Assembly: GCF_002362255.1 (NCBI RefSeq)
Contig: NZ_LPVV01000010.1
Span: forward strand, 62,001-126,000
Length of the DNA: 64,000 nt
Direction of reading: 5' to 3'
Origin: Microbacterium sp. SZ1
GTDB taxonomy: Bacteria; Actinomycetota; Actinomycetes; Actinomycetales; Microbacteriaceae
In this document: piece after piece, positions 37,040 to 53,624 of the stretch
Layout: each line of letters starts with the position of its first letter
How positions within the stretch are numbered: the stretch's first letter is position 1
Notes under the pieces: model-generated
Told to the model about the DNA's origin: nothing
Seen by the model: the letters and a program-made list of their open reading frames with translations, nothing else
The model's database searches: none
Made by a program: the position numbers and the translations under genes

Positions 37040-37078
37040 GTCGGAATTCTGCGCGGATTCCGGCACGAGGTGCCAACT
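37026..37078. repeat. 53-nt palindromic repeat, copy A3
   Basis: Perfect terminal arms AGTTGGCACC / GGTGCCAACT; the core carries CGGAATTC and GATTCCGG, which pair. It lies between the convergent lactonase and SDR genes and directly follows the tandem arm copies. Confidence 0.88.
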
Positions 37079-37142
37079 GGACGGCGGGGGAGGCGGGGGG
37101 AGGCGGGGTGACCTGGGGGGTGATGACGGTCGCGCCGGGCGG

Positions 37143-37901: not shown

Positions 37902-38758
37902 TTCTGCGCCTCCCATGCCACGAACTCCTGGCGCTGATGCCCGAGTCCTTCGATCTCGATGTCGACGACGTCGCCCGCCGTCAGATAGGGGAACTTCCCG
38001 CCGAACGCGACGCCCTGCGGCGTGCCGGTGAGGATGAGGTCGCCGGGCTCGAGCGTGACGTACTGCGACAGGTGGTGCACGATCGCGCGGACGTCGAAGA
38101 TCATGTCGTTCGTGTTCGAGTCCTGCCGGGGCTCGCCGTTGACCCAGCTGCGCAGCCGCAGCGATCCGACCTCGACCTCGTCGGGGGTGACCAGCCACGG
38201 GCCGGTCGGGTTGAAGCCCGCGGCGATCTTGCCCTTCGACCACTGGCCGCCGGAGACCTCCATCTGGAACGCCCGCTCGGAGACGTCGTTCGCGACGACG
38301 TATCCCGCGATGTGCGCGTCGGCCTCCTCGGGTGAGTCGAGGTACGCCGCGCGTGCGCCGATCACGATGCCGAGCTCGACCTCCCAGTCCGTCTTCTCGC
38401 TGCCGCGGGGAATGGTGACCGCGTCGTTCGGTCCGACCACGGTGTTCGGGGTCTTCAGGAACATGATCGGCACGGTGGGCGGCACGGCGCCCGACTCGCG
38501 GGCGTGGGCGGCGTAGTTCTGGCCGATGCAGATGACGGCGCTCGGGCGCGCGATGGGGGCGCCGATGCGCATCGACGCGGCGTCCTCGAGCTCGGGCAGG
38601 CCGCCGTCGGCGAGCGCGGCCTGCACCTGAGCCTGCACGTCACCGGCGAGGAATGCGCCGTCGACATCGGATGTCACGGCCCGCAGATCAAAATACCGAT
38701 CACCGTCGACGAGGACGGGTATCTCGGCTCCGGGGGCGCCTAGGCGTGCGAACTTCAT
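37898..38758 (-). CDS. Fumarylacetoacetate hydrolase-family protein, probable 2,4-diketo-3-deoxy-L-fuconate hydrolase
   Basis: 286 residues from ATG 38758. The FAH signature runs IGQNYAAHARESGAVPPTVP (~75-94), then the acidic metal ligands in DWEVELGIVIG (~126-136), VVANDVSERAFQ (~155-166) and GDLILTGTPQGV (~240-251). Enzymes of this group cleave C-C bonds of beta-diketo acids; here pyruvate and L-lactate would be released from the fucose-derived diketo acid. It overlaps the SDR gene by 4 nt and is divergent from the dehydratase gene, with which it shares a promoter region carrying a palindromic operator. Confidence 0.87.
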   Translation of the reverse strand: MKFARLGAPGAEIPVLVDGDRYFDLRAVTSDVDGAFLAGDVQAQVQAALADGGLPELEDAASMRIGAPIARPSAVICIGQNYAAHARESGAVPPTVPIMFLKTPNTVVGPNDAVTIPRGSEKTDWEVELGIVIGARAAYLDSPEEADAHIAGYVVANDVSERAFQMEVSGGQWSKGKIAAGFNPTGPWLVTPDEVEVGSLRLRSWVNGEPRQDSNTNDMIFDVRAIVHHLSQYVTLEPGDLILTGTPQGVAFGGKFPYLTAGDVVDIEIEGLGHQRQEFVAWEAQK

Positions 38759-38817
38759 GTCTCTCCTGCTCGGTCGGATCGTCGTCGGTCCGGACCACGT
38801 CGCGGTGGCCCGCCTCG

Positions 38818-38847
38818 TTGACAGTATAGACATCGGATGTTTACACT
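38818..38847 (+). promoter_or_regulatory. Promoter of the fuconate dehydratase operon with embedded operator
   Basis: TTGACA (38818-38823) and TACACT (38842-38847) are separated by 18 nt. The palindrome CATCGGATG (38831-38839) fills the spacer, a position where a bound FadR-type protein would block RNA polymerase. The dehydratase start is 43 nt downstream. Confidence 0.6.
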
Positions 38848-38890
38848 CCAAGGGATCTGCACGGACCCCTGCCGTGCCGGAGAGGAACCC

Positions 38891-40186
38891 GTGAGCCGCA
38901 TCGTCGCCCTCGACACCACCGACATCCGCTTCCCCACCTCGCTCAGCCTGGACGGGTCGGATGCCATGAACCCCGACCCTGACTACTCCGCGGCGTACGT
39001 GATCGTGCGCACCGACGCGAAAGACGGCATCGACGGGCACGCCTTCGTCTTCACGATCGGCCGCGGCAACGACGTGCAGGTCGCCGCGATCGACGCCCTC
39101 GCCGGGCACCTCGTCGGGCGGGAGATCGAACCGCTGCTCGACGACATGGGCACGACCTTCCGTGACATCATCGGCGACTCGCAGCTGCGCTGGCTCGGCC
39201 CCGAGAAGGGCGTCATGCACATGGCCATCGGCGCGGTCATCAACGCGCTGTGGGACATCAAGGCCAAGCGCGCCGGCCTGCCGCTGTGGCAGCTGCTCGC
39301 CCGGATGACGCCCGAGGAGCTGGTCGGCCTCGTCGACTTCCGCTACCTCACGAACGCGCTGACCCCGGCGGAGGCGCTCGACATCCTCCGCGCAGCCGAA
39401 CCCGGCCGCGCCGAGCGCGAAGCGGAGCTGCTCGCGACCGGCTACCCCGGATACACCACCAGCCCCGGCTGGCTCGGCTACTCCGACGAGAAACTCGAGC
39501 GGCTCGCCCGCGAGGCCATGGCCGACGGCTTCACGCAGATCAAGCTGAAGGTCGGAGCCGACCTCGACGACGACATCCGCCGGTTCCGCAAGGCGCGCGA
39601 GGTGTGCGGTCCCGACTTCCCCATCGCGATCGACGCGAATCAGCGCTGGGAGGTGTCGGAGGCGATCGAATGGGTGAACGCGCTCGCCGAGTTCCACCCC
39701 GCCTGGATCGAGGAGCCCACCAGCCCCGACGACGTGCTCGGTCACGCCGAGATCGCGCGGGGGGTCGCCCCCATCCGCGTCGCCACCGGCGAGCACGCCC
39801 AGAACCGGGTGATCTTCAAGCAGCTGCTGCAGGCCGACGCGATCTCCGTCATGCAGATCGACGCGGTGCGTGTCGCCGGCGTGAACGAGAACATCGCCAA
39901 CCTGCTGCTCGCGGCCAAGTTCGGCGTGCCTGTATGCCCGCACGCCGGCGGTGTCGGCCTGTGCGAGGCCGTGCAGCACCTGTCGATGTTGGACTTCGTC
40001 GCGGTCACCGGCACGCGTGAAGGCCGCATGATCGAGTTCGTCGACCACCTGCACGAGCACTTCGTCGTGCCCACCGACATCCGGGGCGGCTCCTACACGG
40101 CGCCCACGGCGCCGGGGGCCGGCATGGAGATGAAGGCCGAGAGCATCGCGGCCTACACCTGGACGGGCGAGCATGTCGCGGTCTGA
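38891..40186 (+). CDS. L-fuconate dehydratase (enolase superfamily)
   Basis: 431 residues from GTG 38891, chosen because [20 protein letters not shown] close to the N-terminus is the normal start of this family; the frame opens 18 codons earlier. General-base lysines in QIKLKVGAD (~215-223). Metal ligands in [10 protein letters not shown] (Asp ~247), [10 protein letters not shown] (Glu ~273) and the ATGEHAQNR segment (~300), with [16 protein letters not shown] near 355. It removes water from L-fuconate to give 2-keto-3-deoxy-L-fuconate. It is the most diagnostic enzyme of the cluster. Confidence 0.92.
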
Positions 40187-41138
40187 TCGGCTGACCGTTC
40201 CCGCGCTCGGCTACGGTGCCGCGAACGTCGGCAACCTGTTCCGCGAGCTCAGCGACGACGAGGCGCTCGCCGTGCTGAACGCGGCGTGGGACAGCGGCAT
40301 CCGCTACTTCGACACCGCGCCGCACTACGGGCTCGGCCTGTCGGAGCGGCGCCTCGGCGCCTTCCTGCAGACGAAGCCGCGCGACGAGTACGTCCTGTCG
40401 ACCAAGGTCGGGCGCCGGCTGCGACCCAACCCCGAGTACGCCGGCGGGCTCGACACCGCCAACGACTTCCACGTGCCCGACGACCTGCAGCGAGTGTGGG
40501 ACTTCTCGGCTAACGGGATTCGCACGAGCCTCGACGAGTCCCGCGAGCGACTCGGCATCGAGCGCATCGACCTCGTGTACCTCCACGACCCCGAGCGGCA
40601 CGACCTCGACCTCGCGGTCGCCGAGGCGCTTCCCGCGCTCGAGCAGCTGCGAACGGACGGCGAGGTCGCGGCGATCGGGATCGGCTCCATGGTGTCGGAT
40701 GCTCTCGCCACGGCGGTCCGCGCGGCCGACCTCGACCTCGTGATGGTCGCCGGCCGCTACACGCTGCTCGAGCAGCCGGCCGCCGAGGACGTGCTTCCGG
40801 CGTGCCGGGAGCGCGGAACCGGCATCGTCGCGGCATCCGTCTTCAACTCCGGCCTGCTCGCATCGAGTGAGCCACGGCGCGACGGCCGGTACGAGTACGG
40901 GCAGCTGCCCGACGAGCTGTGGGACCGCGTCGTCCGCATCGCGGCCGTCTGCGCGAACCACGACGTGCCGCTGCCCGCGGCGGCCGTGCAGTTCCCACTG
41001 CAGTCCGACATCGTGCGGTCGGTCGTCGTCGGAGGCAGCCGACCGGAGCAGCTGCGGCAGAACGCCCAGTTCGCGGCGGTCGACATCCCGAAGGCGCTGT
41101 GGGAGGAGCTGGCGGCGGAGGGGCTCATCCCGGGCTAG
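40173..41138 (+). CDS. Aldo/keto reductase, D-threo-aldose 1-dehydrogenase / L-fucose dehydrogenase-like
   Basis: 321 residues; ATG 40173 overlaps the dehydratase stop by 14 nt. Catalytic tetrad: Asp and Tyr in [12 protein letters not shown] (~48-59), Lys in [10 protein letters not shown] (~78) and His in [12 protein letters not shown] (~133). AKRs with this [16 protein letters not shown] segment oxidise L-fucose, D-arabinose or L-galactose at C1 to the lactone. In this cluster it provides the first step, feeding the lactonase. Its 3' end overlaps the convergent LacI gene by 14 nt. Confidence 0.87.
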
Positions 41139-42150
41139 GGTCGGCGGCTCGACGGCCGACCGTCGACGCCCGCACGACGAGTTCCGCCGCGAACGGCGTC
41201 GGCTCGGGCAGGTCGGCGGTGGGGTCGGCGAGCTGCTGCAGCAGCGCCGCGCCCGCCGCGCGACCGATCTCGTACCCCGGCTGCCGCACGCTCGTGAGGG
41301 GTACGACGGTCTGGTGGGCCTGGGTCACATCGTCGAAGCCCACGAGCGCGATGTCGTCGGGAACACGGATGCCGTGGCGCAGCAGCTGCGTCATCACGCC
41401 GATCGCCACCATGTCGTTGGCGGCGAACACGGCATCCGGTCGTTCCTGCGGCGGCAGGGCGGCGATGCGCTCTCCGATCTCCAGGCCGTCCTCGGTGGCG
41501 AGGTGGACGACGTCGACGACCTCGATCGAGGCATCGCTGCCGTCGAGGGTATCACGGATCCCCTGCAGGCGGTCGTTCGACTGACTGACGGTCGGCGCGC
41601 CGACGAAGAGCAGCCGCCGCCGTCCGATGCCCAGCAGGTGCTCGCCCGCGAGCCGGCCGCCGCCTCGGTCGTCGAACAGCACGGATCCCACCGTCGCCGA
41701 CTCGCGGATCGGTCCGACGACGACCGAGCGGATGCCGCGCTCCGCGAGCTGCTCGAGGCGGGGCACGACGTCGCCCAGCGGATAGATGACGAGGCCCTGC
41801 ACGCGGTGCGCCTCGAACATGTCGATGTTGCGGCGCTCGAGCTCGCCGTCGCGGCTGCTGTTGCTGAAGAACAGCGACCAGCCGCCCTCCCTCGCGACAT
41901 CCTCGACGCCGCGGGAGAGCTCCTGGAAATAGGGGATCCACGCGTCGAGCAGGATCAGCGCGAGCGTGCGGCTCGCCCCCGCGCGCAGCTGTCGGGCGGA
42001 CTCGTTGGGCACATATCCGAGCTGCTCGATCGCGGCGCGGACCCTTTCGGCGCTCTGCGCTCCCAGCACGTGCGGGTGGTTCAGGTAGTTCGACACCGTC
42101 GACGAAGAGACGCCGGCGAGGGCTGCGACGTCTTTGACGCTGGCGGGCAT
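41125..42150 (-). CDS. LacI-family transcriptional regulator
   Basis: 341 residues from ATG 42150 with GAGGAGGAA upstream. N-terminal helix-turn-helix and hinge: SVKDVAALAGVSSSTVSNYL (~3-22) through VRAAIEQLGYVPNESARQLR. A periplasmic-binding-protein-like sensor domain (~60-341) ends in LVVRASTV. Two perfect palindromes TTGGCACGTGCCAA lie between it and the divergent epimerase gene, so it probably controls both. The effector is likely a sugar. Confidence 0.92.
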   Translation of the reverse strand: MPASVKDVAALAGVSSSTVSNYLNHPHVLGAQSAERVRAAIEQLGYVPNESARQLRAGASRTLALILLDAWIPYFQELSRGVEDVAREGGWSLFFSNSSRDGELERRNIDMFEAHRVQGLVIYPLGDVVPRLEQLAERGIRSVVVGPIRESATVGSVLFDDRGGGRLAGEHLLGIGRRRLLFVGAPTVSQSNDRLQGIRDTLDGSDASIEVVDVVHLATEDGLEIGERIAALPPQERPDAVFAANDMVAIGVMTQLLRHGIRVPDDIALVGFDDVTQAHQTVVPLTSVRQPGYEIGRAAGAALLQQLADPTADLPEPTPFAAELVVRASTVGRRAADPSPG

Positions 42151-42343: not shown

Positions 42344-43213
42344 ATGAACATCGGATGCCACGGGCTGGTCTGGACAGGACGCTTCGACGCCGAGGGCATC
42401 CGCCTGTCGGTCGAGAAGACGAAGCAGGCCGGCTTCGACCTCATCGAGTTCCCGCTCATGGACCCGTTCGCCTTCGAGGTCGACGCCGCGAAGAGCGCGC
42501 TCGCCGAGCATGAGCTCGCCGTCAGTGCGTCGCTGGGACTCTCCGAGGCGACCGACATCACGAGCGCCGACCCCGCCGTGGCGAAGGCGGGGGAGGAGCT
42601 GCTGCTGAGAGCGGTCGACGTGGTCGCCGAGCTCGGCGGCGAGAACTTCTGCGGCGTGATCTACAGCGCCATGAAGAAGTACATGGAGCCCGTCACCGCC
42701 GAGGGGCTCGAGAGCAGCCGGCGCACGATCGCCCGCGTCGCCGATCACGCGGCGGAGCGCGGCATCGCCGTATCGCTCGAGGTCGTGAACCGCTACGAGA
42801 CCAACGTGCTGAACACCGCGCGGCAGGCGCTCGGCTACCTCGCGGAGGTGGATCGGCCGAACCTCGGCATCCACCTCGACACGTACCACATGAACATCGA
42901 GGAGTCGGACATGTTCGCGCCGGTCCTCGATGCCGCTCCCGCCCTGCGGTACGTGCACATCGGGGAGAGCCACCGCGGGTACCTCGGCACTGGCACGGTC
43001 GACTTCGACACCTTCTTCAAGGCGCTCGGTCGCATCGACTACGACGGGCCGATCGTCTTCGAGTCGTTCTCGTCGGCGGTCGTCGCGCCCGACCTAAGTC
43101 GGATGCTGGGGATCTGGCGCAACCTGTGGACCGACAACGACGAGCTCGGCGCACACGCCAACTCGTTCATCCGCGACAAGCTCACGGCCGTCGAGTCGAT
43201 CCGGCTGCACTGA
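42344..43213 (+). CDS. Sugar 3-epimerase of the D-tagatose/D-psicose 3-epimerase family
   Basis: 289 residues, TIM barrel. The four metal ligands of this family are visible: Glu in VSLEVVNRYETN (~148), Asp in GIHLDTYHMNIEE (~181), His in VHIGESHRGYLGTG (~207) and Glu in IVFESFSS (~242). The GCHGLVWTGRFD start and FPLMDPFAFE also match. It interconverts ketoses at C3 (tagatose/sorbose, fructose/psicose or similar). It is governed by the divergent LacI regulator and followed by a sugar importer; it may feed an imported or derived ketose into a kinase. Confidence 0.87.
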   Translation: MNIGCHGLVWTGRFDAEGIRLSVEKTKQAGFDLIEFPLMDPFAFEVDAAKSALAEHELAVSASLGLSEATDITSADPAVAKAGEELLLRAVDVVAELGGENFCGVIYSAMKKYMEPVTAEGLESSRRTIARVADHAAERGIAVSLEVVNRYETNVLNTARQALGYLAEVDRPNLGIHLDTYHMNIEESDMFAPVLDAAPALRYVHIGESHRGYLGTGTVDFDTFFKALGRIDYDGPIVFESFSSAVVAPDLSRMLGIWRNLWTDNDELGAHANSFIRDKLTAVESIRLH

Positions 43214-43231: not shown

Positions 43232-43245
43232 CTTGTTATTACAGG
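43232..43245. promoter_or_regulatory. Predicted GntR-type operator upstream of the sugar importer
   Basis: CTTGTTATTACAGG (reverse complement CCTGTAATAACAAG) fits the YTGTAAYRACAR pattern. It is about 140 nt before the ATPase start, in the only promoter region of the importer operon. Confidence 0.6.
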
Positions 43246-43384: not shown

Positions 43385-44887
43385 ATGGGTGAGCCCATCC
43401 TCAGAGTCGAGGGGATCAGCAAGGGATTCCCCGGCGTGCAGGCGCTCAAGGACGTGCACCTCGAGGTGCGCCCGGGCGAGGTTCTCGTCCTCGTCGGCGA
43501 GAACGGCGCGGGCAAGTCGACGCTTATGAAGATCCTCTCCGGGATCTACACCAAGGACGAGGGCACGATCACGTTCGAGGGCCGGGAGGTCGAGCTGACC
43601 AGCCCGCTGCAGGCGCAGCAGCTCGGCGTCACGATCATCCATCAGGAGCTCAACCTGATGCCCGACCTCACCGTCGCGCAGAACATCTTCGTGGGCAGGG
43701 AGCCGAAAGTCGGGCCGTTCCTCTCGGAACGCCGGCTCAACTCCCAGACCGCCGAACTGCTGAAGCGCCTCGAGATCCGCCTCGACCCCCGTCAGAAGGT
43801 CGGCGAGCTCACGGTCGCCGAGCAGCAGATGGTCGAGATCGCGAAGGCGCTGTCGTTCAACGCCAAGGTGCTCATCATGGACGAGCCCACCTCGGCCCTG
43901 ACCGACTCGGAGGTAGAGACGCTCTTCGTGCTCATCGAGCAGCTCAAGGCCTCCGGCACCGGCATCGTCTACATCTCGCACCGCATGGACGAGCTGCGCC
44001 GCCTCGCCGACCGGGTCACCGTGCTCCGTGACGGCGCATACATCGGATCACTGGAGAAATCCGAGGTGAGCATCCCGAAGATCATCGAGATGATGGTCGG
44101 ACGCGCGATCGACGAGGGGACTCGCCCGCAGGCCCGCGAGCACGCGAACGACCCGGTGGTTCTCGACGTCCAGGGGCTGTCGACCAAGAGCCTGCTCAAG
44201 GACGTCTCGTTCCAGCTGCACCGCGGCGAGATCCTCGGCTTCGCCGGACTCATGGGCGCGGGACGCACCGAGACCGCGCGCGCGGTGATCGGGGCCGACC
44301 GCCGCGACGGCGGCACCATCACGATCGCCGGGCGCTCCGTGCGCATCTCCCAGCCGTCGGATGCCGTGCGCCACGGTCTCGGGTACCTCTCCGAGGACCG
44401 CAAGCTCCTCGGCCTCATGCTCGAGCAGGACGTGACGTTCAACACCGTTCTCGCCTCGCTCGGCTCCTACGCGAACGCGATCGGGTGGATGGGCGACGGC
44501 AAGGCCAAGAACCGTACCAAGGACTACGTCCAGCAGCTGCGGGTCAAGACGCCCTCGGTGAACCAGGTCGTCAAGCTCCTCTCCGGAGGCAACCAGCAGA
44601 AGGTCGTCATCGCCCGGTGGCTGATGCGCGACTGCGACATCCTCATCTTCGACGAGCCGACACGGGGCATCGATGTCGGCGCGAAGGAAGAGATCTACCG
44701 CCTCATGCAGCAGCTCGCTGACGCGGGCAAGTCCATCATCGTCATCTCGTCGGAACTGCCGGAGATCCTCCGCGTCGCGAACCGCATCGCGGTCTTCGCG
44801 AACGGTCGCATCACCGGAACCCTCCGCAACGAAGACGCCAGCCAGGAGAAGATCATGCAACTCGCAGCACACGGAGAGGAAGACTGA
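43385..44887 (+). CDS. Sugar ABC transporter ATP-binding protein, RbsA/MglA type
   Basis: 500 residues from ATG 43385; the frame is open 20 codons earlier but EPILRVEGISKGFPGVQALK is the normal N-terminus. Two ABC domains: Walker A GENGAGKST at ~38, signature LTVAEQQMVEIAKAL, Walker B VLIMDEPTSALTD; the second half has the degenerate A-loop GLMGAGRTE, signature LSGGNQQKVVIARW and ILIFDEPTRGIDVG. This is the CUT2 arrangement that serves monosaccharides. The operon continues with permease (ATGA overlap) and binding protein. Confidence 0.93.
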   Translation: MGEPILRVEGISKGFPGVQALKDVHLEVRPGEVLVLVGENGAGKSTLMKILSGIYTKDEGTITFEGREVELTSPLQAQQLGVTIIHQELNLMPDLTVAQNIFVGREPKVGPFLSERRLNSQTAELLKRLEIRLDPRQKVGELTVAEQQMVEIAKALSFNAKVLIMDEPTSALTDSEVETLFVLIEQLKASGTGIVYISHRMDELRRLADRVTVLRDGAYIGSLEKSEVSIPKIIEMMVGRAIDEGTRPQAREHANDPVVLDVQGLSTKSLLKDVSFQLHRGEILGFAGLMGAGRTETARAVIGADRRDGGTITIAGRSVRISQPSDAVRHGLGYLSEDRKLLGLMLEQDVTFNTVLASLGSYANAIGWMGDGKAKNRTKDYVQQLRVKTPSVNQVVKLLSGGNQQKVVIARWLMRDCDILIFDEPTRGIDVGAKEEIYRLMQQLADAGKSIIVISSELPEILRVANRIAVFANGRITGTLRNEDASQEKIMQLAAHGEED

Positions 44888-45918
44888 TGAGCGCTCCGCA
44901 GAACGGATCGTCCACGACGACGATCATCCAGACGGCCATCGACGAGAACACCGACAAGCGTGACGTCGTCGGTTTCCTCAAGCGCCAGGTCCAGCAGTCG
45001 CTCGCGTTCGGCACGCTGATCGTGCTCGTGATCTTCTTCTCGATCGCCAGCCCGAACTTCTTCACCTTCAGCAACATCGCGACGGTGCTGCTCTCGACGG
45101 CCGTCATCGGCATCCTCGCCCTCGGCACCACGTTCGTCATCATCACCGGCGGCATCGACCTGTCGATCGGAACCGGCATGGCGCTGTGCGCCGTGATGAC
45201 CGGTGTGATCGTGACGAACATGGGGCTCCCCGTCTGGATCGGCGTCATCGGCGGCGTGTTGACGGGTGTGCTGATGGGGCTCGTGAACGGCATCAACATC
45301 ACGTTCCTGCGACTGCCGCCGTTCATCGCGACGCTCGCGATGATGATGATCGCCGGCGGTCTGGCCCTCGTCATCTCGAACGTCGCTCCGATCTACTTCT
45401 CGACCTCCGCCCCGGACTTCAAGAAGATCGCCCTCGGCGTGATCATCCCCGGCATCCCGAACGCCGTGCTCATCACCGCCGCCCTCGCGATCGTCGCCTG
45501 GCTCGTGCTCTCGAAGACGCTGCTCGGCCGGTACACCTTCGCGATCGGCTCGAACGAAGAGGCCACCCGCCTCTCCGGCGTGAACACGCGCCGCTGGACG
45601 ATCTTCATCTACATGTTCGCCGGCGCCTTCACGGGCATCGCGGGCATCGTCATCGCCTCCCGGCTCGACTCCGCCCAGCCGCAGATCGGCATGGGCTACG
45701 AGCTGCAGGCCATCGCGGCCGTCATCATCGGCGGCACCTCGCTGCTCGGCGGCCGCGGATCGATCCTCGGCACCGTGATCGGCGCGCTCATCATGAGCGT
45801 GCTCGTCAACGGCCTGCGCATCATGTCGATCCAGACCGAATGGCAGAACATCGTCGTCGGCATCGTCGTGCTGCTCGCGGTGTTCCTCGACTCGCTGCGC
45901 AACCGCCAGCACACCTGA
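44887..45918 (+). CDS. Sugar ABC transporter permease, RbsC type
   Basis: 343 residues, first codon overlapping the ATPase stop. About ten hydrophobic segments follow a ~45-residue hydrophilic N-terminus. The family motif ITGGIDLSIGTGMALCAVMT is at ~87-106, and GSNEEATRLSGVNTRRWTIF with INGTSLLGGRG-like IIGGTSLLGGRGSILGTVIG follow. It forms the CUT2 import channel. Confidence 0.93.
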   Translation: MSAPQNGSSTTTIIQTAIDENTDKRDVVGFLKRQVQQSLAFGTLIVLVIFFSIASPNFFTFSNIATVLLSTAVIGILALGTTFVIITGGIDLSIGTGMALCAVMTGVIVTNMGLPVWIGVIGGVLTGVLMGLVNGINITFLRLPPFIATLAMMMIAGGLALVISNVAPIYFSTSAPDFKKIALGVIIPGIPNAVLITAALAIVAWLVLSKTLLGRYTFAIGSNEEATRLSGVNTRRWTIFIYMFAGAFTGIAGIVIASRLDSAQPQIGMGYELQAIAAVIIGGTSLLGGRGSILGTVIGALIMSVLVNGLRIMSIQTEWQNIVVGIVVLLAVFLDSLRNRQHT

Positions 45919-45994: not shown

Positions 45995-46993
45995 ATGAAA
46001 TTCGGCAAGAAGACCGCGTTCGCGGCACTCGTGGCCGCATCCGCCCTCGTGTTCGCCGGCTGCGCCGGCGGCGGTGACGTCATCGAAGAAGGCGGCAGCG
46101 ACGCAGGCAGCGGCGACGGCGAGATGTACATCGCGCTGGTGTCCAAGGGCTTCCAGCACCAGTTCTGGCAGGCCGTCAAGAAGGGCGCCGAGCAGAAGGC
46201 CGAGGAACTCGGCGTTCGGATCACGTTCGAGGGCCCCGCGGCCGAGACCGAGATCGCGCAGCAGCTCGAGATGCTGACCAGTGCGATCGACAAGAACCCG
46301 AACGCCATCGCGTACGCCGCGCTCGACCCCGAGGCGTGCGTCGCCCCGCTCGAGCAGGCGAAGTCGAAGGACATCCCGGTCGTCTACTTCGATGCACCCT
46401 GCAACGGCGACGTGGGCCTGAGCCTCGCCGCCACCGACAGCAAGGTCGCCGGCGCGCTGGCCGCCGAGCACATGGCCGAGCTGATCGGCGGGTCGGGAGA
46501 GGTCGCGATCGTCGGCCACTCGCAGATCAACTCGACCGGTGTCGAGCGTCGTGACGGATTCGTCGAGAAGATCGAGGCGGACTACCCCGACATCGAGATC
46601 GTCGACATCCAGTACGGCGACGGCGACCACCTGAAGTCGGCCGACATCGCGAAGACCCTCATCGCGGCGCACCCCGACCTCAAGGGCATCTACGGCACGA
46701 ACGAGGGCTCCGCTATCGGTGTCGTCAACGCCGTGAACGAGCTCGGCCTCGAGAAGGGCAAGATCACGATCGTCGGCTTCGACTCCGGCGCAGCGCAGAT
46801 CAACGCCATCAAGGACGGCACGATGGCCGGCGCGATCACGCAGGACCCGATCGGCATCGGCGCGCAGGTCGTCCAGGCCGCGTACGACGCGGCCAACGGC
46901 GACTCGGTCGACGAGTTCTACGACACGGGTTCGTACTGGTACGACAAGTCGAACCTCGAGGACGAGAAGATCGCTGCGGTCCTGTACGAGTGA
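45995..46993 (+). CDS. Sugar-binding lipoprotein, RbsB type
   Basis: 332 residues. Signal peptide KFGKKTAFAALVAASALVF with lipobox FAGC (Cys ~24), Gly/Asp-rich linker, then two Rossmann lobes. Segments typical of CUT2 binding proteins are ALVSKGFQHQFWQAVKKGAE, IAYAALDPEACVAPLEQAKS and GIYGTNEGSAIGVVNAVNE. FxxQFWxxVxxGA resembles binding proteins for pentoses, tetritols and autoinducer-2-like sugars. A strong hairpin terminator follows 8 nt after the stop. Confidence 0.92.
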   Translation: MKFGKKTAFAALVAASALVFAGCAGGGDVIEEGGSDAGSGDGEMYIALVSKGFQHQFWQAVKKGAEQKAEELGVRITFEGPAAETEIAQQLEMLTSAIDKNPNAIAYAALDPEACVAPLEQAKSKDIPVVYFDAPCNGDVGLSLAATDSKVAGALAAEHMAELIGGSGEVAIVGHSQINSTGVERRDGFVEKIEADYPDIEIVDIQYGDGDHLKSADIAKTLIAAHPDLKGIYGTNEGSAIGVVNAVNELGLEKGKITIVGFDSGAAQINAIKDGTMAGAITQDPIGIGAQVVQAAYDAANGDSVDEFYDTGSYWYDKSNLEDEKIAAVLYE

Positions 46994-47156: not shown

Positions 47157-47453
47157 TCAGACGCGGCGCAGGAACGTGAGCTGCGACGACGGCTCCAGGA
47201 TGAGGTCCTGCAACGCCGCGTTGAACGGGACCCCGACGGGGGAGGCGAGGTGCGCCTGGAACGCGGCCTCGTCGCGGTACACCTCATACACGAAGAAACG
47301 GTCGGGGTCGTCGACGAGGCGGGTCGCGTCGAATACGACGTTGCCCTCCTCGGCCCGCACGCCCTCGGCGAAGTCGGCGAGGAGCGCGGCGACGCGATCG
47401 CCCTCGCCGGGTCGCGCGGTGAAGGTCGCGTGGAGGATGGTCGGTTCGGACAC
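47157..47453 (-). CDS. Antibiotic biosynthesis monooxygenase (ABM)-domain protein
   Basis: 98 residues from GTG 47453. Single ABM ferredoxin-like fold: ILHATFTARPGEGDRVAALL, then VRAEEGNVVFDATRLVDDPD and RFFVYEVYRDEAAFQAHLAS. The EGN..F...D/P..F..YE.Y.D..A...H pattern is shared with LsrG-type isomerases and heme/quinol monooxygenases. It is last in a six-gene operon with a kinase and dehydrogenases, which suggests an isomerase or aldehyde-handling role instead of antibiotic oxidation. That is inference. Confidence 0.78.
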   Translation of the reverse strand: MSEPTILHATFTARPGEGDRVAALLADFAEGVRAEEGNVVFDATRLVDDPDRFFVYEVYRDEAAFQAHLASPVGVPFNAALQDLILEPSSQLTFLRRV

Positions 47454-47494
47454 AGTGTCTCCTTCAGTGAGATGTTCTGCGGGGTGTGGCGCGG

Positions 47495-47523
47495 GTCGTC
47501 TCGCTCCGCTCGCTCATCGACCC
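47495..47523. repeat. Dispersed repeat D, copy at the phosphotriesterase gene end
   Basis: GTCGTCTCGCTCCGCTCGCT (47495-47514) followed by CATCGACCC closely matches the repeat inside the prp regulator gene (56227-56258). The stop codon of the phosphotriesterase-like gene (47514-47516) lies inside it. Confidence 0.7.
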
Positions 47524-48470
47524 GCAGGGAGGGCGAGGAGGCGGGCCGGATTGGCACGCAGCATCCGATCGACGGCCTCGTCGCCGACGGCCGCACGCAA
47601 CCGTGGAAGATACCGCTCGCCGAGGTAGGCGAGACCCGGCATGCCGCCGTACGCGATGTAGCGGGTGCGGCGGGCGACGTCGCCGCCCAGCACCACGCGG
47701 TCGAGGGCCCCCGCCGCGACGACCGCCTCGGTCAGGGCGAGCAGCTCGGCATCCGATCGTGTGCGCGGTCGCGCGAACCCGTCGTATCCGAGGTAGGCGC
47801 CGCGTTCCGCGAGCGAGGCGTGCAGCCCGGGGTCCGGGTCGCGGTCGGCGTGGGCCAGCACGACGCGGTCGGCCGGCACACCCTCGCCCGCGAGCAGGTC
47901 GAGGACCTCGTGCGCGGCGGTGCAGAACTCCAGGTGCACCATGATCGCGGCACCCGTGGCGCGATGCGTCGCGGCAAGGGCCAGCAACGTCGTGCGCTCG
48001 AAGGGACTGATGCGCCAGTAGTCGGTGCCGCCCTTGAGCAGCCCCGCGCGCACGGGGGAGCCGTCGGGTCCGCTCGCACGCTGACCGACCGGGTCGGCGT
48101 CGGCCCGTGGCATCCCCTCGTCGATCTCACGGCTGAACTGCGCGGCGAGCGTCTCGGCATCCGCGGACCGCGTCGGATGGTCATCGGCGTAGTGCGCCTC
48201 GCGGTGCCGTCCGGTCGTCGCGACGATGCGCAGGCGGGTGGAAGCGCTGATCCGCGCGAGTGCCTCGGGGTCGCGGCCGAGCCCGAACGGTGTCGCGTCG
48301 ACCATCGCCGCGAAGCCGCTGTCGCGCAGCAGGGCCGCCTCGGCGCCCGAGCGCTCCTCGTCGTCGAGCTCGTCCCCCTGCAACAGGGGCGACACCTGGA
48401 ACAGGTGCTCGTGATAGTTCGTCGGGCCGAGCTCCGCCGCGTCGATGTCGCCGAGAACCGTGCGGATCAT
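47514..48470 (-). CDS. Phosphotriesterase-family (PTE-like) amidohydrolase/lactonase
   Basis: 318 residues from ATG 48470, overlapping the preceding stop as ATGA; the longer upstream frame shadows the neighbour. N-terminal metal motif is NYHEHLFQ (His-x-His, ~20), middle bridging residue region GLLKGGTDYWRISPFE (Lys), HLEFCTAAHEVLDLL and VVLAHADRDPDP for His ligands, and the C-terminal Asp in VVLGGDVARRTRY (~263). Bacterial relatives hydrolyse phosphorylated or free sugar lactones. In this operon it may open a lactone or phosphosugar intermediate. Its last codons and stop lie in dispersed repeat D. Confidence 0.8.
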   Translation of the reverse strand: MIRTVLGDIDAAELGPTNYHEHLFQVSPLLQGDELDDEERSGAEAALLRDSGFAAMVDATPFGLGRDPEALARISASTRLRIVATTGRHREAHYADDHPTRSADAETLAAQFSREIDEGMPRADADPVGQRASGPDGSPVRAGLLKGGTDYWRISPFERTTLLALAATHRATGAAIMVHLEFCTAAHEVLDLLAGEGVPADRVVLAHADRDPDPGLHASLAERGAYLGYDGFARPRTRSDAELLALTEAVVAAGALDRVVLGGDVARRTRYIAYGGMPGLAYLGERYLPRLRAAVGDEAVDRMLRANPARLLALPAGR

Positions 48471-49411
48471 CGCCGCGCCGACTCCGCAGCCTCGGCCAGG
48501 CGCTCGACGATCTCGGGAGTGAGGTCGAGTTCGAAGACGTCGGCGACCACCTGCGACCAGCCGTGGATGAAGTAGCGCCAGCCGTCGACGACGTGCAGTC
48601 CTCGCTCCGCTTCCTGCGCGCGGGCCTGGTGCAGGAACTCCAGCGAACCGCGGTAGTTGAACTCCCACACCCAGGCGCCCTCGGGGAAGACGACGTCGTC
48701 GGGCAGGGGCGACCCGGGGCGGTCCTTTCCGAGCCCCGTCGCGTTCACGATCAGCGATCCGGCAGGAGCCGCGGAGACCAGGGCGGCGGCGTGCTCGACC
48801 GTGTCGGTGCGCACGTACTCGATGAACCCGTCGCGGGTGCCGTGCTGGCGATGCACGTCGCGCAGGTGCTCGAGCTTCTCGTCGTCGCGCGCGGTCACGG
48901 TCACGGCCGCCGGAGCGTCAGCCCGCTCGGCGAGCGCCCAGCTGAGCGCTGTGCCCGATCCGCCGGCGCCGAGGATGACAACCTCGGCGCCGGTGCGGGC
49001 GAAGTGGTCGTGCGGCAGGAAGTCGTTCAGTGCCAGGTCGACCGTGATCGGGTCCTTCGCGCGGCCGATCAGACGGTCGCCCCGCTTCGAGATGCTCGAG
49101 ATCTCGGCGCACGACACCGCGAACGGGTCGAGCTCGTCGAAGAGGTCGGATGCCGCGGCGAACACGTTCATCTTGTGCGTGGTCACGAGGGCCCCGCGGT
49201 GGTGCGGGTCGTCGCGGATCTGCTCGACCATGGCCCGGTATTGGGCGGGTCCGGCGTCCATGGGAAGGTCGTGTCCGACGAGCTCGGTGGTGGGCAGCCC
49301 CAGCACCTCGGCCCATCGCGGGAACACCTGCATGATCGACGACGAGCCGGTGCTCACGCCGACGAAGCCCATGTAGCCGCCGGTCGTGGTGGGGTTCTCG
49401 GTGATGGTCAT
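48467..49411 (-). CDS. Divergent shikimate dehydrogenase-family oxidoreductase
   Basis: 314 residues from ATG 49411. Lys in VTTHKMNVF (~78) and Asp in GRAKDPITVDLAL (~120) match the catalytic Lys/Asp pair of AroE. NAD(P)-binding VVILGAGGSGTALSWAL (~142) and VNATGLGKDRPGSPLP (~226) follow. The shikimate-carboxylate loop is VSTGSSSIMQVFPRW instead of the usual SLSPxxHN. There is a C-terminal WEFNYRGSLEFL block and the protein is longer than AroE (~275). It sits in a sugar operon, so it is likely a dehydrogenase for another polyhydroxy acid or cyclitol. Coupled by ATGA overlap to the next gene. Confidence 0.75.
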   Translation of the reverse strand: MTITENPTTTGGYMGFVGVSTGSSSIMQVFPRWAEVLGLPTTELVGHDLPMDAGPAQYRAMVEQIRDDPHHRGALVTTHKMNVFAAASDLFDELDPFAVSCAEISSISKRGDRLIGRAKDPITVDLALNDFLPHDHFARTGAEVVILGAGGSGTALSWALAERADAPAAVTVTARDDEKLEHLRDVHRQHGTRDGFIEYVRTDTVEHAAALVSAAPAGSLIVNATGLGKDRPGSPLPDDVVFPEGAWVWEFNYRGSLEFLHQARAQEAERGLHVVDGWRYFIHGWSQVVADVFELDLTPEIVERLAEAAESARR

Positions 49412-49422
49412 GGTCGCGTCCT

Positions 49423-50379
49423 TCAGGGTCGGGCGGAGACGAGGTGGGCGGGCGTCGAGCCGGCGAGGACGGCGAGCACGTCGTCGAGCGACATCGAGCC
49501 CATGTTGTCGACGGCCTGCGTGGTCTGCGCACCGAGGTGCGGCGTGACGGTGACGCGTTCGGCGAGGTCGGCGGCCAGCAGCGGGCTGTCGCTCGCGGCC
49601 GTGTCACCCGAGAGGGTGTCGGCCGCGTAGGCGCCGAGGCGACCGTCGCGGAGCGCCGCGGCCACGGCATCCTCGTCGATGAGATCCGGACGGGCGGTGT
49701 TCACGAGCACGGTGCCCGGTCGGATGCCGTCGAGCCGCGCCGCATCCACGAGGGTCTGCCCGCCCGGGGCGTGCAGCGTGATGATGTCGGCCGTGCGGAA
49801 GAGGTCGTCGAGGGCGATCGGCACGGTGCCGAGCGCGACGATGCGCTCGGGTGCGAGGAACGGGTCGGCGGCGAGCACCGCGCAGCCGAAGCCGGTCAGA
49901 CGGCGGGCGACTCCCTGGCCGATGCGCCCGAAGCCGACGATCCCGACGGTGGCAGCGCCCAGCTCGCGTCCGCGGCGGACACTCCAGTCGCCCCGGCGCA
50001 CGCGACGATCGCCGTCGGCGATGCACCGCAGCGCCGCGAGCATGAGCCCCACCGCGTGGTCGGCGACGGCATCCGCGTTCGCGCCGGGGGTGTTCGTGAC
50101 CGGTATGCCGCGTCGCTCGGCCGCCGCGATGTCGACCGCCTCGGTCCCCACTCCGTATCGCGCGATGACCTTGAGGTTCGGTGCCGCGTCGAGGTGCGCG
50201 TCGGTGACGGGTCCGGTGCCGGCGATCCACCCCTCGGCCGCCGCGAGCAGCGGACCGAGCTCGGTGAGCCCGTGGTGCGCGGGACCGCGGACGATCTCGT
50301 GCCCGGCATCCCTGGCGCGCGCCACGAGGTCGAGGTCGCCGTCGGAGAACGACCTGCTGGTGGCGAGGATCACGCCCAT
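49423..50379 (-). CDS. D-isomer 2-hydroxyacid dehydrogenase family protein
   Basis: 318 residues from ATG 50379. NAD-binding TVGIVGFGRIGQGVARRL (~144-161), catalytic Arg in VNTARPDLIDED (~229) and His in VTPHLGAQTTQAVDN (~279). The position of the catalytic Glu (usually DVFxxEP) reads ADTLSGDTAASDS, so Glu is replaced, perhaps by Asp. The overall form is like 3-phosphoglycerate dehydrogenase without the ACT tail. Substrate is probably a sugar-derived 2-hydroxy acid or its phosphate. Start overlaps the kinase stop by one base. Confidence 0.8.
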   Translation of the reverse strand: MGVILATSRSFSDGDLDLVARARDAGHEIVRGPAHHGLTELGPLLAAAEGWIAGTGPVTDAHLDAAPNLKVIARYGVGTEAVDIAAAERRGIPVTNTPGANADAVADHAVGLMLAALRCIADGDRRVRRGDWSVRRGRELGAATVGIVGFGRIGQGVARRLTGFGCAVLAADPFLAPERIVALGTVPIALDDLFRTADIITLHAPGGQTLVDAARLDGIRPGTVLVNTARPDLIDEDAVAAALRDGRLGAYAADTLSGDTAASDSPLLAADLAERVTVTPHLGAQTTQAVDNMGSMSLDDVLAVLAGSTPAHLVSARP

Positions 50380-51911
50380 CAGACGCTCCCGTCCGCTGCG
50401 GAGGGGGCGGCGGCCGGGGCGGCGGAGAGTGCGGCGGCGAACCACGGCGCGAGCGCGTCGTACGCGGCGGCGAAGCGCGCGTGGCGCTGTGCGTACACGG
50501 CGTGCCGCCCGGCATCCGGAGTGAACTCCGCGGTGACCTCGCTCAGCGCGCGGGCGGCCGAGAAGTCGGCGAGGCCGAGTCCGACGGCGCCGGTCACGGC
50601 GGCGCCCAGGCTGTTGGCCTCCTCGACGATCGTGCGGCGGCGGACCGGGACGCCCCAGACGTCGGCGAGGATGCCGAGCCACACGTCGCTCTGCGCGCCG
50701 CCGCCGACCGCGTCGATGCGGTCGATCGCGGCGCCCGACTCGCGGAACGCCTGGATGCAGGTGAGGAGGTTGAACGCGACGCCCTCGAGCACGGCGCGCG
50801 TGAGGTGCGCCCTCGTGTGGTGGCGGCCGATGCCGACGAAGGCGCCCCGGGCCGATGGGTCCCAGAGCGGCGACCGCTCGCCGAGCAGGTAGGGGAGGAA
50901 GTAGAGGTCCTCGGTGTCGAGGTCGCCGCCGGCGTCGGCGGTCAACCGGGCGGTCTCGGGGTGCGCGGGGTCCGCGGACAGGGCCTCGGCGATCCACTGC
51001 ACCGATGCGCCGCCGGCCTGCATGGTCGCCGTCGGCACGAAGGAGCCGGGCACGACGTTGTCGAAGGTCATGGTGCGCATCAGCGGATCGTGCAGCGGGG
51101 TGAGGCTCGCGAAGGAGATCCACGACGAGGTGCCGAGGCAGACGTACGCGCCGTCCTCGGGCGCTACGACGCCCGAGCCGACCGCCGCGAGCGGACCGTC
51201 GCCGCCGCCCATCACGACCCTGGTCGACGCGGGCAGGCCGAGCGCAGCCGCAGCCTCAGCCGTGAGCGCACCGGCGACCGTCGTCGACTCGAGGATCTCG
51301 GGGAACAGCGCCGGGTCGAGGCCGGCGGCAGCGAGCACGTCGGCCGACCACGTGCCCGCGACCTGGTCGTAGGCGTTCGTGCCCGACGCGTCGGAGCGCT
51401 CGGTCGCCAGACGGCCCGTGAGCCGGAAGACGATGTAGTCCTTCGCGACGCAGAAGTGACGGACTCTGGCGAAGACCTCGGGCTCGTTGTCGCGCACCCA
51501 CATGATCTTCTCGACCGAGTACGTCGGGTTGAGGCGATGCCCGAGCACCCGGTAGGCGGGCTCGGCGCCGAGGCGCTGCTCGAGGGTGTGGGTCTGCGCG
51601 CCCGAGCGGGTGTCGGCCCAGATGATCGCCGGTCGCACCGGCTCGCCGCGCGCATCCAGCAGCACCGTGCCCATCATCTGCCCGCTCACGACGAGGCCGA
51701 CGACCGTCTCGGGGGAGACATCGGCCTTCGCGAGCAGCTTCCTGGTGGCGTCGACGACCGCGCCCCACCAGTCCGCCGGGTCCTGCTCGGCGATGCCGCC
51801 CGCCGCGAAGTGCGCGGGGTACGGGACGGTGACCGCTGTCACGAGGCGCCCGTCGTCGTGGTGCAGCGAGGCCTTGTCGCCCGTGGTGCCCAGGTCGTGA
51901 GCGATGATCAT
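50379..51911 (-). CDS. FGGY-family carbohydrate kinase (xylulokinase-like)
   Basis: 510 residues from ATG 51911. Phosphate-1 loop AHDLGTTGDKASLHHDDGRL (~4-23), IIWADTRSG (~94), the second ATP motif VCLGTSSWISF (~257) and the adenosine motif AVGGGAQSDVWLGILADVWG (~400), with the catalytic Asp in MGGGDGPLAAVGSG (~237). The protein phosphorylates a ketose or polyol; xylulokinases are the nearest recognisable group. It is second in the six-gene operon behind the cupin isomerase. The last ~25 residues are Ala/Pro-rich. Confidence 0.88.
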   Translation of the reverse strand: MIIAHDLGTTGDKASLHHDDGRLVTAVTVPYPAHFAAGGIAEQDPADWWGAVVDATRKLLAKADVSPETVVGLVVSGQMMGTVLLDARGEPVRPAIIWADTRSGAQTHTLEQRLGAEPAYRVLGHRLNPTYSVEKIMWVRDNEPEVFARVRHFCVAKDYIVFRLTGRLATERSDASGTNAYDQVAGTWSADVLAAAGLDPALFPEILESTTVAGALTAEAAAALGLPASTRVVMGGGDGPLAAVGSGVVAPEDGAYVCLGTSSWISFASLTPLHDPLMRTMTFDNVVPGSFVPTATMQAGGASVQWIAEALSADPAHPETARLTADAGGDLDTEDLYFLPYLLGERSPLWDPSARGAFVGIGRHHTRAHLTRAVLEGVAFNLLTCIQAFRESGAAIDRIDAVGGGAQSDVWLGILADVWGVPVRRRTIVEEANSLGAAVTGAVGLGLADFSAARALSEVTAEFTPDAGRHAVYAQRHARFAAAYDALAPWFAAALSAAPAAAPSAADGSV

Positions 51912-51920
51912 GCCCGGAGC

Positions 51921-52523
51921 CTATTCGACGGTTTCGGGAACGGTCGCGGTCGTGTCGTACGGGCGCAGCTCGACACCCTCTGCCGCGCGGTAGGCGCGGG
52001 AGCCCATGCCGTGCTCGAGCACCCATCCGTAGTCGTGGCCGGCGCCGCCCGGGTAGACCGCGAGGAACGCGTAGGGCTCGTCGCCGGTGTTCACCGAGCG
52101 GTGCGCCCAGCCGGGCGGGATGTAGCCGACCGTGCCCGGAAGCATGTCGAGCCACTCGGTGCGCTCGCCGTCGAACATGAGGAGCCCGCCGCGGCCCGTC
52201 AACGCGAGGTAGATCTCGCCCTGGTGGTCGGGGTGCTGGTGGCCCTTCGTCATCCAGAGCTCGCCGGAGGTGTCACCGGGCATGATCGTCGTGATCGACT
52301 GCGGGAGCTCGCGGTCGACCTCGGGGACGGGTGAGCTCGTGACGGTGTATACGACCGGGTTGTCGCCCTCGGCCGCGGCCTGCCAGGCGCCGTGGTCCAG
52401 GAAGAGCCCTTCCAGGTCGGACATTCGACGCGTGAGCGTCGGCCCCTCCGGCGAGAGTGTGAGCTTCTCGGCATCGAACGCGATCGCCATCGGCGCGATG
52501 GGAGGGATGTGGAACTCGGGCAT
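51921..52523 (-). CDS. Cupin-type sugar (phosphate) isomerase
   Basis: 200 residues from ATG 52523 with GAGGAG upstream. The cupin metal motif TKGHQHPDHQGEIYLALTGR (~117-136) has two His and a Glu, and GYIPPGWAHRSVNTGDEPYA (~157-176) supplies the last His. These blocks match archaeal-type cupin phosphoglucose isomerase and related aldose-ketose isomerases. As first gene of an operon followed by an FGGY kinase, it may convert an aldose to the ketose that the kinase uses. Two GntR-type operators lie 38 and 61 nt upstream of the start. Confidence 0.82.
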   Translation of the reverse strand: MPEFHIPPIAPMAIAFDAEKLTLSPEGPTLTRRMSDLEGLFLDHGAWQAAAEGDNPVVYTVTSSPVPEVDRELPQSITTIMPGDTSGELWMTKGHQHPDHQGEIYLALTGRGGLLMFDGERTEWLDMLPGTVGYIPPGWAHRSVNTGDEPYAFLAVYPGGAGHDYGWVLEHGMGSRAYRAAEGVELRPYDTTATVPETVE

Positions 52524-52560: not shown

Positions 52561-52574
52561 CCTGTAATGACAGG
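52561..52574. promoter_or_regulatory. Predicted GntR-type operator 1 of the six-gene operon
   Basis: CCTGTAATGACAGG is the most symmetric copy (5-bp arms), 38 nt before the cupin gene start. Confidence 0.75.
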
Positions 52575-52583: not shown

Positions 52584-52597
52584 CCTGTAATGACAAG
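52584..52597. promoter_or_regulatory. Predicted GntR-type operator 2 of the six-gene operon
   Basis: CCTGTAATGACAAG lies 23 nt from operator 1 (about two helical turns), so two dimers could bind the same face. Confidence 0.72.
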
Positions 52598-52643: not shown

Positions 52644-53624
52644 TCAGGATGCGGCGCGCAACGCCCTCGCGAGATGGGCGCGTCCGTGACGGACGGCATC
52701 GGCGGTCACGGCATCCCACCCCGGGTATTCGGCGTGCCCGGCGGGGAGGACCGCGAGCTCGAGGTCGCGCGCCGCGTTCGCGACGCCGAACTGGCCCGGC
52801 GGCGGCACGTACTGGTCCCACAGCGCGGCCTCGACCCGCACCGGGATCGCCGCGAAGCCCAGGGTGCTGGACGCGTCGAACGGTCGCAGCTGCTCCCGGG
52901 CCTCCGGATGCTCCGTGACGTGCGCGCGGACTACCTCGCCGCTGCCGAGGCAGGGCACGGCCAGGCGTTCGTCGTACTGGCCGAAGCTCGGCACGATGAG
53001 CGTCGCGCCGATGAAGCGGTCGTCCCACGGGATGCCGAGGGCGCCGATGCCGCCGCCGAAGCTCTCGCCGACGTAGTACAGCGGCAGGTCTCCGACGAGC
53101 AAGAGGAGCGTGTCGGCCGCGAGCCAGAGATCCCGCGCGCACATTCCGAGGACGTACCGGTCGGGATCGCCGAGCCCCGCGAGCACGTGCTGCTCGACCG
53201 GTTCCGGTGCGCCGACGCCGGCGTTCAGCGTCGGCAGGCCCCTCGCCACGGGAAAGATCGCCGCCGCGTCGTCCGGCACCCGCGCGAGATCGATCGCGTC
53301 ACGGCCGCCGTAGCCGTGCGAGTGGACGATCCCCACGCGGGCCGCTTCGGTCGCCGGACCCACGAGCCAGGAGCGGAGGCGGATGCCGTCGGCGCCGGCG
53401 TGCTCGACGATCGAGACGCTGCGCCCGTCGACGGTCGTGGTCGAGAGGGTGCGCGGCGCGGCATCCACCGTCCTCGCCTCCGCGCGCCAGCGACGCCAGG
53501 TGTCGGCGAGGCCGGTCGGCGGCGCGACCGGGGGCACTCGACGCAGCGCGTGCTCGTCGAAGCCGTAGGTGCCGTCGAACGCGGCATCCGGGAACCAGGA
53601 GTCGTAGGGCGCAGGGAAGGGCAT
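52644..53624 (-). CDS. Acetylxylan-esterase-like alpha/beta hydrolase (AXE1 family)
   Basis: 326 residues from ATG 53624, no signal peptide. Nucleophile elbow YVGESFGGGIGALG (Ser ~184), an Arg/Gly segment SHGYGGRDAID (~101), the acid near RVEAALWDQYVPPPGQF (Asp ~267) and His in LPAGHAEYPGW (~301). The layout of domain and long cap fits the cytosolic AXE1/cephalosporin C deacetylase family, which removes acetyl groups from oligosaccharides. It is upstream of the six-gene sugar operon on the same strand but separated by operators. Confidence 0.68.
   Translation of the reverse strand: MPFPAPYDSWFPDAAFDGTYGFDEHALRRVPPVAPPTGLADTWRRWRAEARTVDAAPRTLSTTTVDGRSVSIVEHAGADGIRLRSWLVGPATEAARVGIVHSHGYGGRDAIDLARVPDDAAAIFPVARGLPTLNAGVGAPEPVEQHVLAGLGDPDRYVLGMCARDLWLAADTLLLLVGDLPLYYVGESFGGGIGALGIPWDDRFIGATLIVPSFGQYDERLAVPCLGSGEVVRAHVTEHPEAREQLRPFDASSTLGFAAIPVRVEAALWDQYVPPPGQFGVANAARDLELAVLPAGHAEYPGWDAVTADAVRHGRAHLARALRAAS

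Follow-up and report, generated by a model that had tools for sequence, protein, structure and literature searches.

What might be degraded by a row of six genes to which no substrate has been assigned was asked for a stretch of 64,000 nucleotides of Microbacterium sp. SZ1 (contig NZ_LPVV01000010.1, positions 62,001 to 126,000; hereafter the window, in whose coordinates all positions are given). The genes lie on the reverse strand and run, from the promoter, in the order CUP (51921-52523; cupin of the archaeal phosphoglucose-isomerase type, PF06560, predicted ketose-phosphate/aldose-phosphate isomerase), KIN (50379-51911; xylulokinase-like FGGY kinase with the N- and C-terminal domains PF00370 and PF02782, predicted ketose kinase), HADH (49423-50379; D-2-hydroxyacid dehydrogenase, PF02826/PF00389, predicted aldonate-phosphate 2-dehydrogenase), AROE (48467-49411; oxidoreductase assigned to the shikimate-dehydrogenase fold by fold match and kept residues, predicted aldose-phosphate 1-dehydrogenase), PTE (47514-48470; phosphotriesterase-family hydrolase, PF02126, best solved match 3pnz, predicted phosphosugar lactonase) and ABM (47157-47453; small protein of the antibiotic-biosynthesis-monooxygenase fold, PF03992, accessory). 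PTE and AROE overlap by 4 nt, and the place, strand and spacing of the six genes described in an earlier interpretation of the bare letters (the sequence-only reading) were all borne out, as was its view of a substrate-unassigned, probably catabolic operon. The gene set proved to be real, conserved, and larger than the six genes first noted once the genes behind a shared operator-like motif were included; its reactions would be those of sugar catabolism with an unusual recruitment of enzymes.

Relatives were collected by an AROE-based scan of genome contigs, which yielded 133 confirmed loci, the best 80 of which were kept for the counts. By a division of our own, 42 of these were classed as close (AROE 79-97% identical) and 38 as divergent (53-77%, including one that bears the name Microbacterium suaedae). 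The loci in which the presence of genes was scored by tblastn were no longer than about 21 kb and in several cases truncated by contig ends, so that absences are soft. The nearest relatives of AROE were from Microbacterium (97% identity to the AROE of M. hydrocarbonoxydans P30), and the 80 loci spanned Microbacterium, Cryobacterium, Agrococcus, Arthrobacter, Plantactinospora, Actinomadura, Nonomuraea, Saccharopolyspora and Nocardioides. PTE was found near AROE in 77 of the 80 loci, HADH in 75, KIN in 69, CUP in 67 and all five genes in 64; the row CUP-KIN-HADH-AROE-PTE was complete in 62/68 loci with room on both sides. The five core genes are therefore kept together in actinobacteria, not scattered, and a chance cluster was ruled out by this conservation together with the confinement of the motif to promoters in the relatives. 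ABM, with a match in 25/80 loci (23/42 close, 2/38 divergent), is not core. The spread of the set is patchy: AROE had a match in 19/58 relatives at E 0.001, some of them weak, and in 9/396 genomes of the phylum at E 1e-40. Among the six exceptions with room, one locus kept just HADH and PTE near AROE, with PTE matching in three pieces (L093), two carried a second type of CUP and KIN downstream (L095 and L100), one kept just PTE (L101), one had none of the other four genes (L102), and one had KIN nearby on the opposite strand (L103).

An additional frame at 52644-53624, just upstream of the CUP operon on the same strand, had a relative in 15/80 loci and matched neither Pfam nor NCBIfam families at E 0.001. 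The gene caller used here overlooked some genes.

The sequence-only reading had placed a double operator upstream of the six genes and one of the same type at a CUT2 importer, and both were located, as a predicted operator-like motif. Two copies stand upstream of the CUP operon (CTGTAATGACAG, 52562-52573, and CTGTAATGACAA, 52585-52596) and one upstream of the importer (TTGTTATTACAG, 43233-43244); two more lie at 34493-34531 between the divergent genes FSA and RBK, that at 34493 falling outside the strict pattern, and another upstream of EDA, a KDPG/KHG-family aldolase gene (TTGTCGTTACAA, 19434-19445). A loose scan of the window, with three mismatches allowed, gave 19 matches, which does not exceed chance (the shuffles had a mean of 17.08, and 34/100 of them reached 19). 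The strict pattern YTGTNRTKACAR, derived from the best window sites, occurred at seven places (nine strand matches) in the 3.45 Mb genome, against three strand matches for the pattern read backwards. Five of the seven places were in the window (19434, 34520, 43233, 52562 and 52585), at the four promoters that serve EDA, the divergent pair FSA / RBK-RbsD-GntR, the importer and the CUP operon; the other two were one inside a called gene and one flanked by a CUT1-type binding-protein gene and a gene divergent from it.

In the 80 relative loci, the strict pattern was present at 111 places in 60 loci, and the reversed motif at two. All 111 places were at promoters of the same genes (CUP, CUP2, KIN, ABCA, FSA/RBK and SBP/GntR), upstream being taken as 350 bases before to 20 bases inside the tblastn match rather than as a distance from the start codon; no copy was found upstream of HADH, AROE, PTE, ENOL, AKR, LACI or EST in the 80 loci. 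The motif preceded CUP in 43/52 loci with this gene, and CUP2, a second cupin subtype, in 15/17. Fifteen Microbacterium loci carried CUP2, divergent from KIN, and the motif lay between the two genes in 15/15, from which it appears that the cupin gene was swapped and the control site kept. A further genome copy of the motif was seen at L111:1501-1512, where a gene for a CUT1-type sugar-binding protein lies on one side and a divergent gene, by eye resembling a ROK-type regulator, on the other.

The aldolase EDA (18750-19388, reverse strand, PF01081) lies 30 kb from the CUP operon, is the sole PF01081 match in the genome and is 66% identical to an in-operon version in the locus L067. Its Schiff-base Lys130 and its Glu41 were kept in 30/31 aligned sequences (here and below, residue alignments omit sequences outside 0.8-1.4 times the length of the window protein). 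In the divergent loci a KDPG/KHG-family aldolase stood directly before AROE in 25/38 and somewhere in the locus in 27/38. The suggestion of the sequence-only reading that lactone opening is followed by aldolase and transaldolase steps supplied by regulon partners was supported as far as prediction goes, the predicted aldolase partner being this KDPG/KHG-family enzyme. A survey of 59 Microbacterium genomes found an AROE orthologue (at least 61% identity, with seven matches at 46-55% excluded) in 13 and an EDA orthologue (at least 64%) in 15; EDA was present in 13/13 AROE-bearing and 2/46 other genomes (Fisher p 2.6e-11, a value that overstates the evidence, as p-values do here, because loci and genomes share kinship). 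The strict motif was found upstream of 11/12 out-of-operon EDA copies in AROE-bearing genomes, G022 being the exception, and was absent from the copies in the AROE-less genomes G023 (83% complete) and G034, from 14 more distant EDA-family genes and from the in-operon EDA of G369. EDA and AROE were 24-43 kb apart in ten genomes and on different contigs in G030 and G455. That EDA is an unrelated gene was rejected, since the sole copy of the genome carries the motif. The conserved motif and the dispersed aldolase together define a short, testable list of genes. Directly downstream of EDA, on the same strand, a TauE/SafE-family exporter gene (17975-18730) was observed, which could export a by-product of the pathway.

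The GntR/UTRA protein encoded at 32234-33037 on the reverse strand (PF00392 and PF07702), predicted to bind the motif, is its likely regulator, because it has a match in 29/38 divergent loci. GntR, UTRA and aldolase form one protein in three distant genomes (L128:7718-9250, L129:5161-6621 and L130:7274-8731), and the L129 protein is without both catalytic residues of its aldolase domain, Lys and Glu, a loss which suggests that it acts as a sensor; such a fusion might yield a regulator that senses the end of the pathway.

Given the gene content, the shared motif, the conservation, the folds or families and the kept catalytic residues, all observed here, the conserved motif-linked set would degrade a rare sugar via phosphorylated intermediates in the order KIN, CUP, AROE, PTE, HADH and EDA, a reading that we put forward tentatively, at somewhat short of an even chance. 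KIN would phosphorylate a ketose, CUP would isomerise the ketose phosphate to an aldose phosphate, AROE would oxidise the latter to a lactone phosphate, PTE would open it, HADH would oxidise carbon 2 of the aldonate phosphate to give a 2-keto acid, and EDA, as a member of the same predicted regulon, would cleave this acid by an aldol split. RBK and RbsD would feed an aldose branch that meets the ketose branch at CUP, and FSA would form a side branch. The kinase is placed first because both CUP and PTE have the look of enzymes that take phosphorylated substrates; AROE is proposed as the maker of the lactone phosphate since it is the best placed enzyme of the set, its gene overlapping that of PTE.

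CUP scored 71.7 bits against PF06560 (cut-off 20.7), and its closest solved proteins were archaeal-type phosphoglucose isomerases, in an alignment spanning 147 residues. Of 55 aligned sequences, CUP2 being excluded from this alignment, at least 54 retained the metal ligands together with the motifs TKGH and GHDYG, elements that we take to bind metal and phosphate in phosphoglucose isomerase. Because the phosphate motif is kept, CUP likely acts downstream of the kinase, on a phosphosugar rather than on a free aldose, and the sequence-only proposal of isomerisation before phosphorylation was revised. That more conventional order, with CUP acting on the free aldose, KIN producing a ketose phosphate to be fed by way of FSA into glycolysis or the pentose phosphate pathway, and AROE, PTE and HADH answering to the same regulator while serving a second substrate such as a sugar acid or lactone, is unlikely in our estimation: the motif common to FSA, RBK and RbsD would fit it, as would two loci (L101 and L128) with AROE-PTE and the importer in which CUP, KIN and HADH are not close by, but both the phosphate motif of CUP and the occurrence of the five genes together in 62/68 loci speak for a single route. 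KIN itself scored 396 bits against the xylulokinase model TIGR01312 (XylB), above the cut-off of 380.25, and 261 bits against the narrower xylulokinase model PRK15027, below the cut-off of 912.

The closest solved relative of PTE was 3pnz, presumably Lmo2620, a lactonase for pentono-lactone 5-phosphates in which we assume K244, R275 and Y278 to lie at the phosphate; the letters of 3pnz at 244, 275 and 278 agree with the PTE-3pnz alignment. The corresponding residues of PTE are R236 (R or K in 79/79 sequences), R267 (79/79) and R270 (77/79), and its six metal-ligand positions, His20, His22, Lys146, His179, His207 and Asp264, presumably those of a binuclear metal centre with a bridging lysine, were kept in 79/79. 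PTE thus shares its metal ligands and basic residues at the presumed phosphate positions with the Lmo2620-type phospho-furanose lactonases (PTE family, cog1735; their function is as we assume it here), but it differs in lying far below the cut-off of the NCBIfam model for these enzymes (NF045706; 99 bits against 630). HADH was nearest to phosphoglycerate dehydrogenase, its best NCBIfam model (212 bits, below the cut-off of 454), and its Arg230 and His281 were kept in 77/77 sequences and Asp/Glu259 in 76/77.

AROE matched the models of its namesake weakly, with 38.5 bits against the aroE model (cut-off 200.2) and 45.4 bits against the best NCBIfam shikimate model (cut-off 252). Its AlphaFold model (predicted local distance difference test score 93) has the shikimate-dehydrogenase fold, and the best Foldseek matches of this model were shikimate/quinate dehydrogenases (query template-modelling score up to 0.74), with further matches to 5-ketofructose reductase at 18-19% identity. 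The catalytic pair Lys80/Asp120 and the further basic residues Lys229 and Arg254 were invariant in 23 sequences. A 5-ketofructose reductase is reported to be related to shikimate dehydrogenases, and a similar protein from Clostridium pasteurianum to be inactive with 5-ketofructose (PMC7954740). This kinship offers a precedent for sugar substrates of AroE-related enzymes, with the shikimate-dehydrogenase fold used on a sugar; the 5-ketofructose reductases differ in that they reduce a free keto-sugar, whereas AROE would oxidise C1 of an aldose phosphate. Among the 120 AROE homologues listed, those with a name were labelled shikimate dehydrogenase, shikimate 5-dehydrogenase or shikimate dehydrogenase family protein. 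If the proposed reactions are right, many genomes may therefore carry a mislabelled sugar pathway; for both AROE and CUP, the database names of homologues were generic labels only among the 120 listed of 7905 and 4119, respectively. No paper describing this gene set was recognised among the matches listed in literature searches, whose coverage left out most subscription journals. The sequence-only reading knew of no described pathway with this exact enzyme set. If the proposed reactions hold, AroE-fold dehydrogenases as sugar-phosphate oxidases and PTE-family proteins as phospholactonases would be new jobs brought together in one route.

The end of the proposed route can be read in two ways, because a dehydratase was not recognised in the set: at the EDA step an ordinary hexose would give hydroxypyruvate and glyceraldehyde 3-phosphate, or else pyruvate would be released, the sugar then being a 3-deoxy one. 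No sugar-acid dehydratase was recognised among the motif-linked genes, to which the search was confined within the genome, and the nearby enolase-superfamily dehydratase gene (38837-40186) is without the motif (0/41 loci). The first reading amounts to a non-dehydrating, phosphorylated variant of the Entner-Doudoroff pathway, in which AROE as aldose-phosphate dehydrogenase, PTE as phospholactonase and HADH would convert any D-hexose phosphate to a 2-keto-aldonate phosphate that EDA would split into hydroxypyruvate and glyceraldehyde 3-phosphate; we consider it possible, if rather doubtful. Were it true, one regulon could consume several rare hexoses, since the stereochemistry at carbons 2, 3 and 4 would be erased. 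The passage from aldose phosphate through lactone phosphate to aldonate phosphate, as proposed here, and the KDPG-family aldolase at the end are shared with the Entner-Doudoroff pathway, which consists of glucose 6-phosphate oxidation, lactonase, dehydratase and KDPG (2-keto-3-deoxy-6-phosphogluconate) aldolase; the conserved set differs in the want of a recognised dehydratase, in the extra 2-hydroxyacid dehydrogenase and ketose kinase entry, and in using an AroE-fold and a PTE-family enzyme where the Entner-Doudoroff pathway has Zwf and 6-phosphogluconolactonase. According to the second reading, a 3-deoxy-ketose, such as 3-deoxyfructose from glycation products, would be the substrate, HADH would make true KDPG and EDA would release pyruvate and glyceraldehyde 3-phosphate. 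EDA, with its Glu41 and Lys130 kept, would then receive an ordinary kind of substrate without a dehydratase in the set, but an epimerase such as EPI, a gene beside the importer that is found in 49/80 loci and in the gene row of L130, would need the 3-hydroxyl, and a GH2-type gene by a sister cluster suggests glycosidic sugars; this version appears quite improbable.

Several observations weigh against the favoured order of KIN, CUP, AROE, PTE, HADH and EDA. KDPG-family aldolases normally release pyruvate, and a 2-keto-3-hydroxy substrate would be unusual; AROE retains the serines that in shikimate dehydrogenase, as we assume, bind a carboxylate. L101 has AROE-PTE and the importer but lacks a nearby CUP, KIN and HADH (a divergent pair of HADH and AROE is found 8.5 kb away); L128 has AROE-PTE, the importer and the EDA fusion, with CUP, KIN and HADH not close by; and L102 carries AROE alone. 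Because these loci retain AROE or AROE-PTE without the other three genes, AROE-PTE may act earlier or elsewhere. A DeoC-family aldolase for which the scheme has no use is present in the sister clusters L104-L106, L110 and L132 as well as in L095 and L100, and neither FSA nor ABM is given a role in the main sequence of steps. The motif was present at ABCA in just 18/66 loci, in five of them shared with a divergent EPI, and 20/80 loci, some of them short contigs, were without the strict motif.

The sister clusters L104, L105, L106, L110 and L132 combined AROE with the second cupin type, the DeoC-family aldolase, an FGGY kinase and a KDPG aldolase, some of them also with an RbsD or GH2-type gene. 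A metallo-beta-lactamase-fold protein was seen near AROE in L132; PTE was not found in L132, nor in L104 within the stretch examined.

Uptake would be served by the CUT2 importer, encoded on the forward strand by an ATPase gene assigned by profile matches (43385-44887), a permease gene (44887-45918, PF02653) and a sugar-binding protein gene (45995-46993), beside which lies EPI (42344-43213, forward strand, PF01261), a TIM-barrel protein resembling ketose 3-epimerases and a possible accessory. The best NCBIfam model of the binding protein was the D-allose binding protein (136 bits, far below the cut-off of 335), and EPI scored 165 bits against D-psicose 3-epimerase (cut-off 300). Since these top models, both below cut-off, concern such sugars, our leading guess at the substrate, albeit a weak one, is a hexose of ribo configuration, for example D-allulose or D-allose. 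The recurrence of EPI (36/42 close and 13/38 divergent loci) and its presence in the L130 gene row favour a sugar with a 3-hydroxyl. Same-strand neighbours included zinc alcohol dehydrogenase homologues in L130 and L089 and the EPI homologue in L130, with which a ketose entry point fits.

RBK (33494-34411, reverse strand) is a ribokinase-like PfkB kinase, whose longer frame (33494-34483) scored 288.8 bits against TIGR02152 (cut-off 299.65); no second RBK match was found in the genome at E 0.001. RbsD (33039-33443, reverse strand) belongs to the D-ribose pyranase family (PRK11797, 153.7 bits, cut-off 93) and is the sole RbsD/FucU match in the genome, and FSA (34551-35213, forward strand; scanned from 34560) is of the transaldolase/fructose-6-phosphate-aldolase family (PF00923). 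The set shares a CUT2 importer and epimerase-like and ribokinase/RbsD-like partners with what we take to be the make-up of the D-allose (als) and ribose (rbs) systems of E. coli; in those two systems, as we understand them, the point of entry is fructose 6-phosphate or ribose 5-phosphate, and no oxidation, lactonase or KDPG-type aldolase takes part. To our knowledge, the enzyme list is not matched by the pathways for D-apiose, erythritol, L-ascorbate or sulfoquinovose.

The FGGY kinase, the ABM protein and the CUT2 importer had reminded the sequence-only reading of parts of the Lsr (autoinducer-2) system, although it noted the absence of LsrF. With the weak similarity of ABM to LsrG, these genes might point to an Lsr-like system for the uptake and breakdown of autoinducer-2 or some diketone related to it. 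This likeness did not hold up: KIN scored 176 bits against the autoinducer-2 kinase LsrK (cut-off 528) and ABM 33 bits against LsrG (cut-off 135), ABM had a match in a minority of the loci (25/80), and Lsr has no use for a lactonase or an AroE-like step. The binding protein likewise scored 76 bits against LsrB (cut-off 384), less than the 136 bits of the D-allose model, and none of the scanned window genes received an LsrF-like name; an Lsr system was rejected, and a function of that kind seems extremely remote.

In L087 (15897-19028) and similarly in L084, L088 and L071, in Agrococcus and Cryobacterium, genes for a distant L-fucose-isomerase-like protein and a second FGGY kinase stood next to the importer genes. 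The group of genes at 35250-42150 of the window (GntR, lactonase-like, SDR, FAH, enolase-superfamily dehydratase, AKR and LacI) was considered as a part of the set and rejected, as the motif was absent upstream of its ENOL (0/41 loci), AKR (0/42) and LACI (0/35) genes, the three members of the group that were so checked. It probably represents a separate oxidative sugar pathway, L-fucose-type in appearance.

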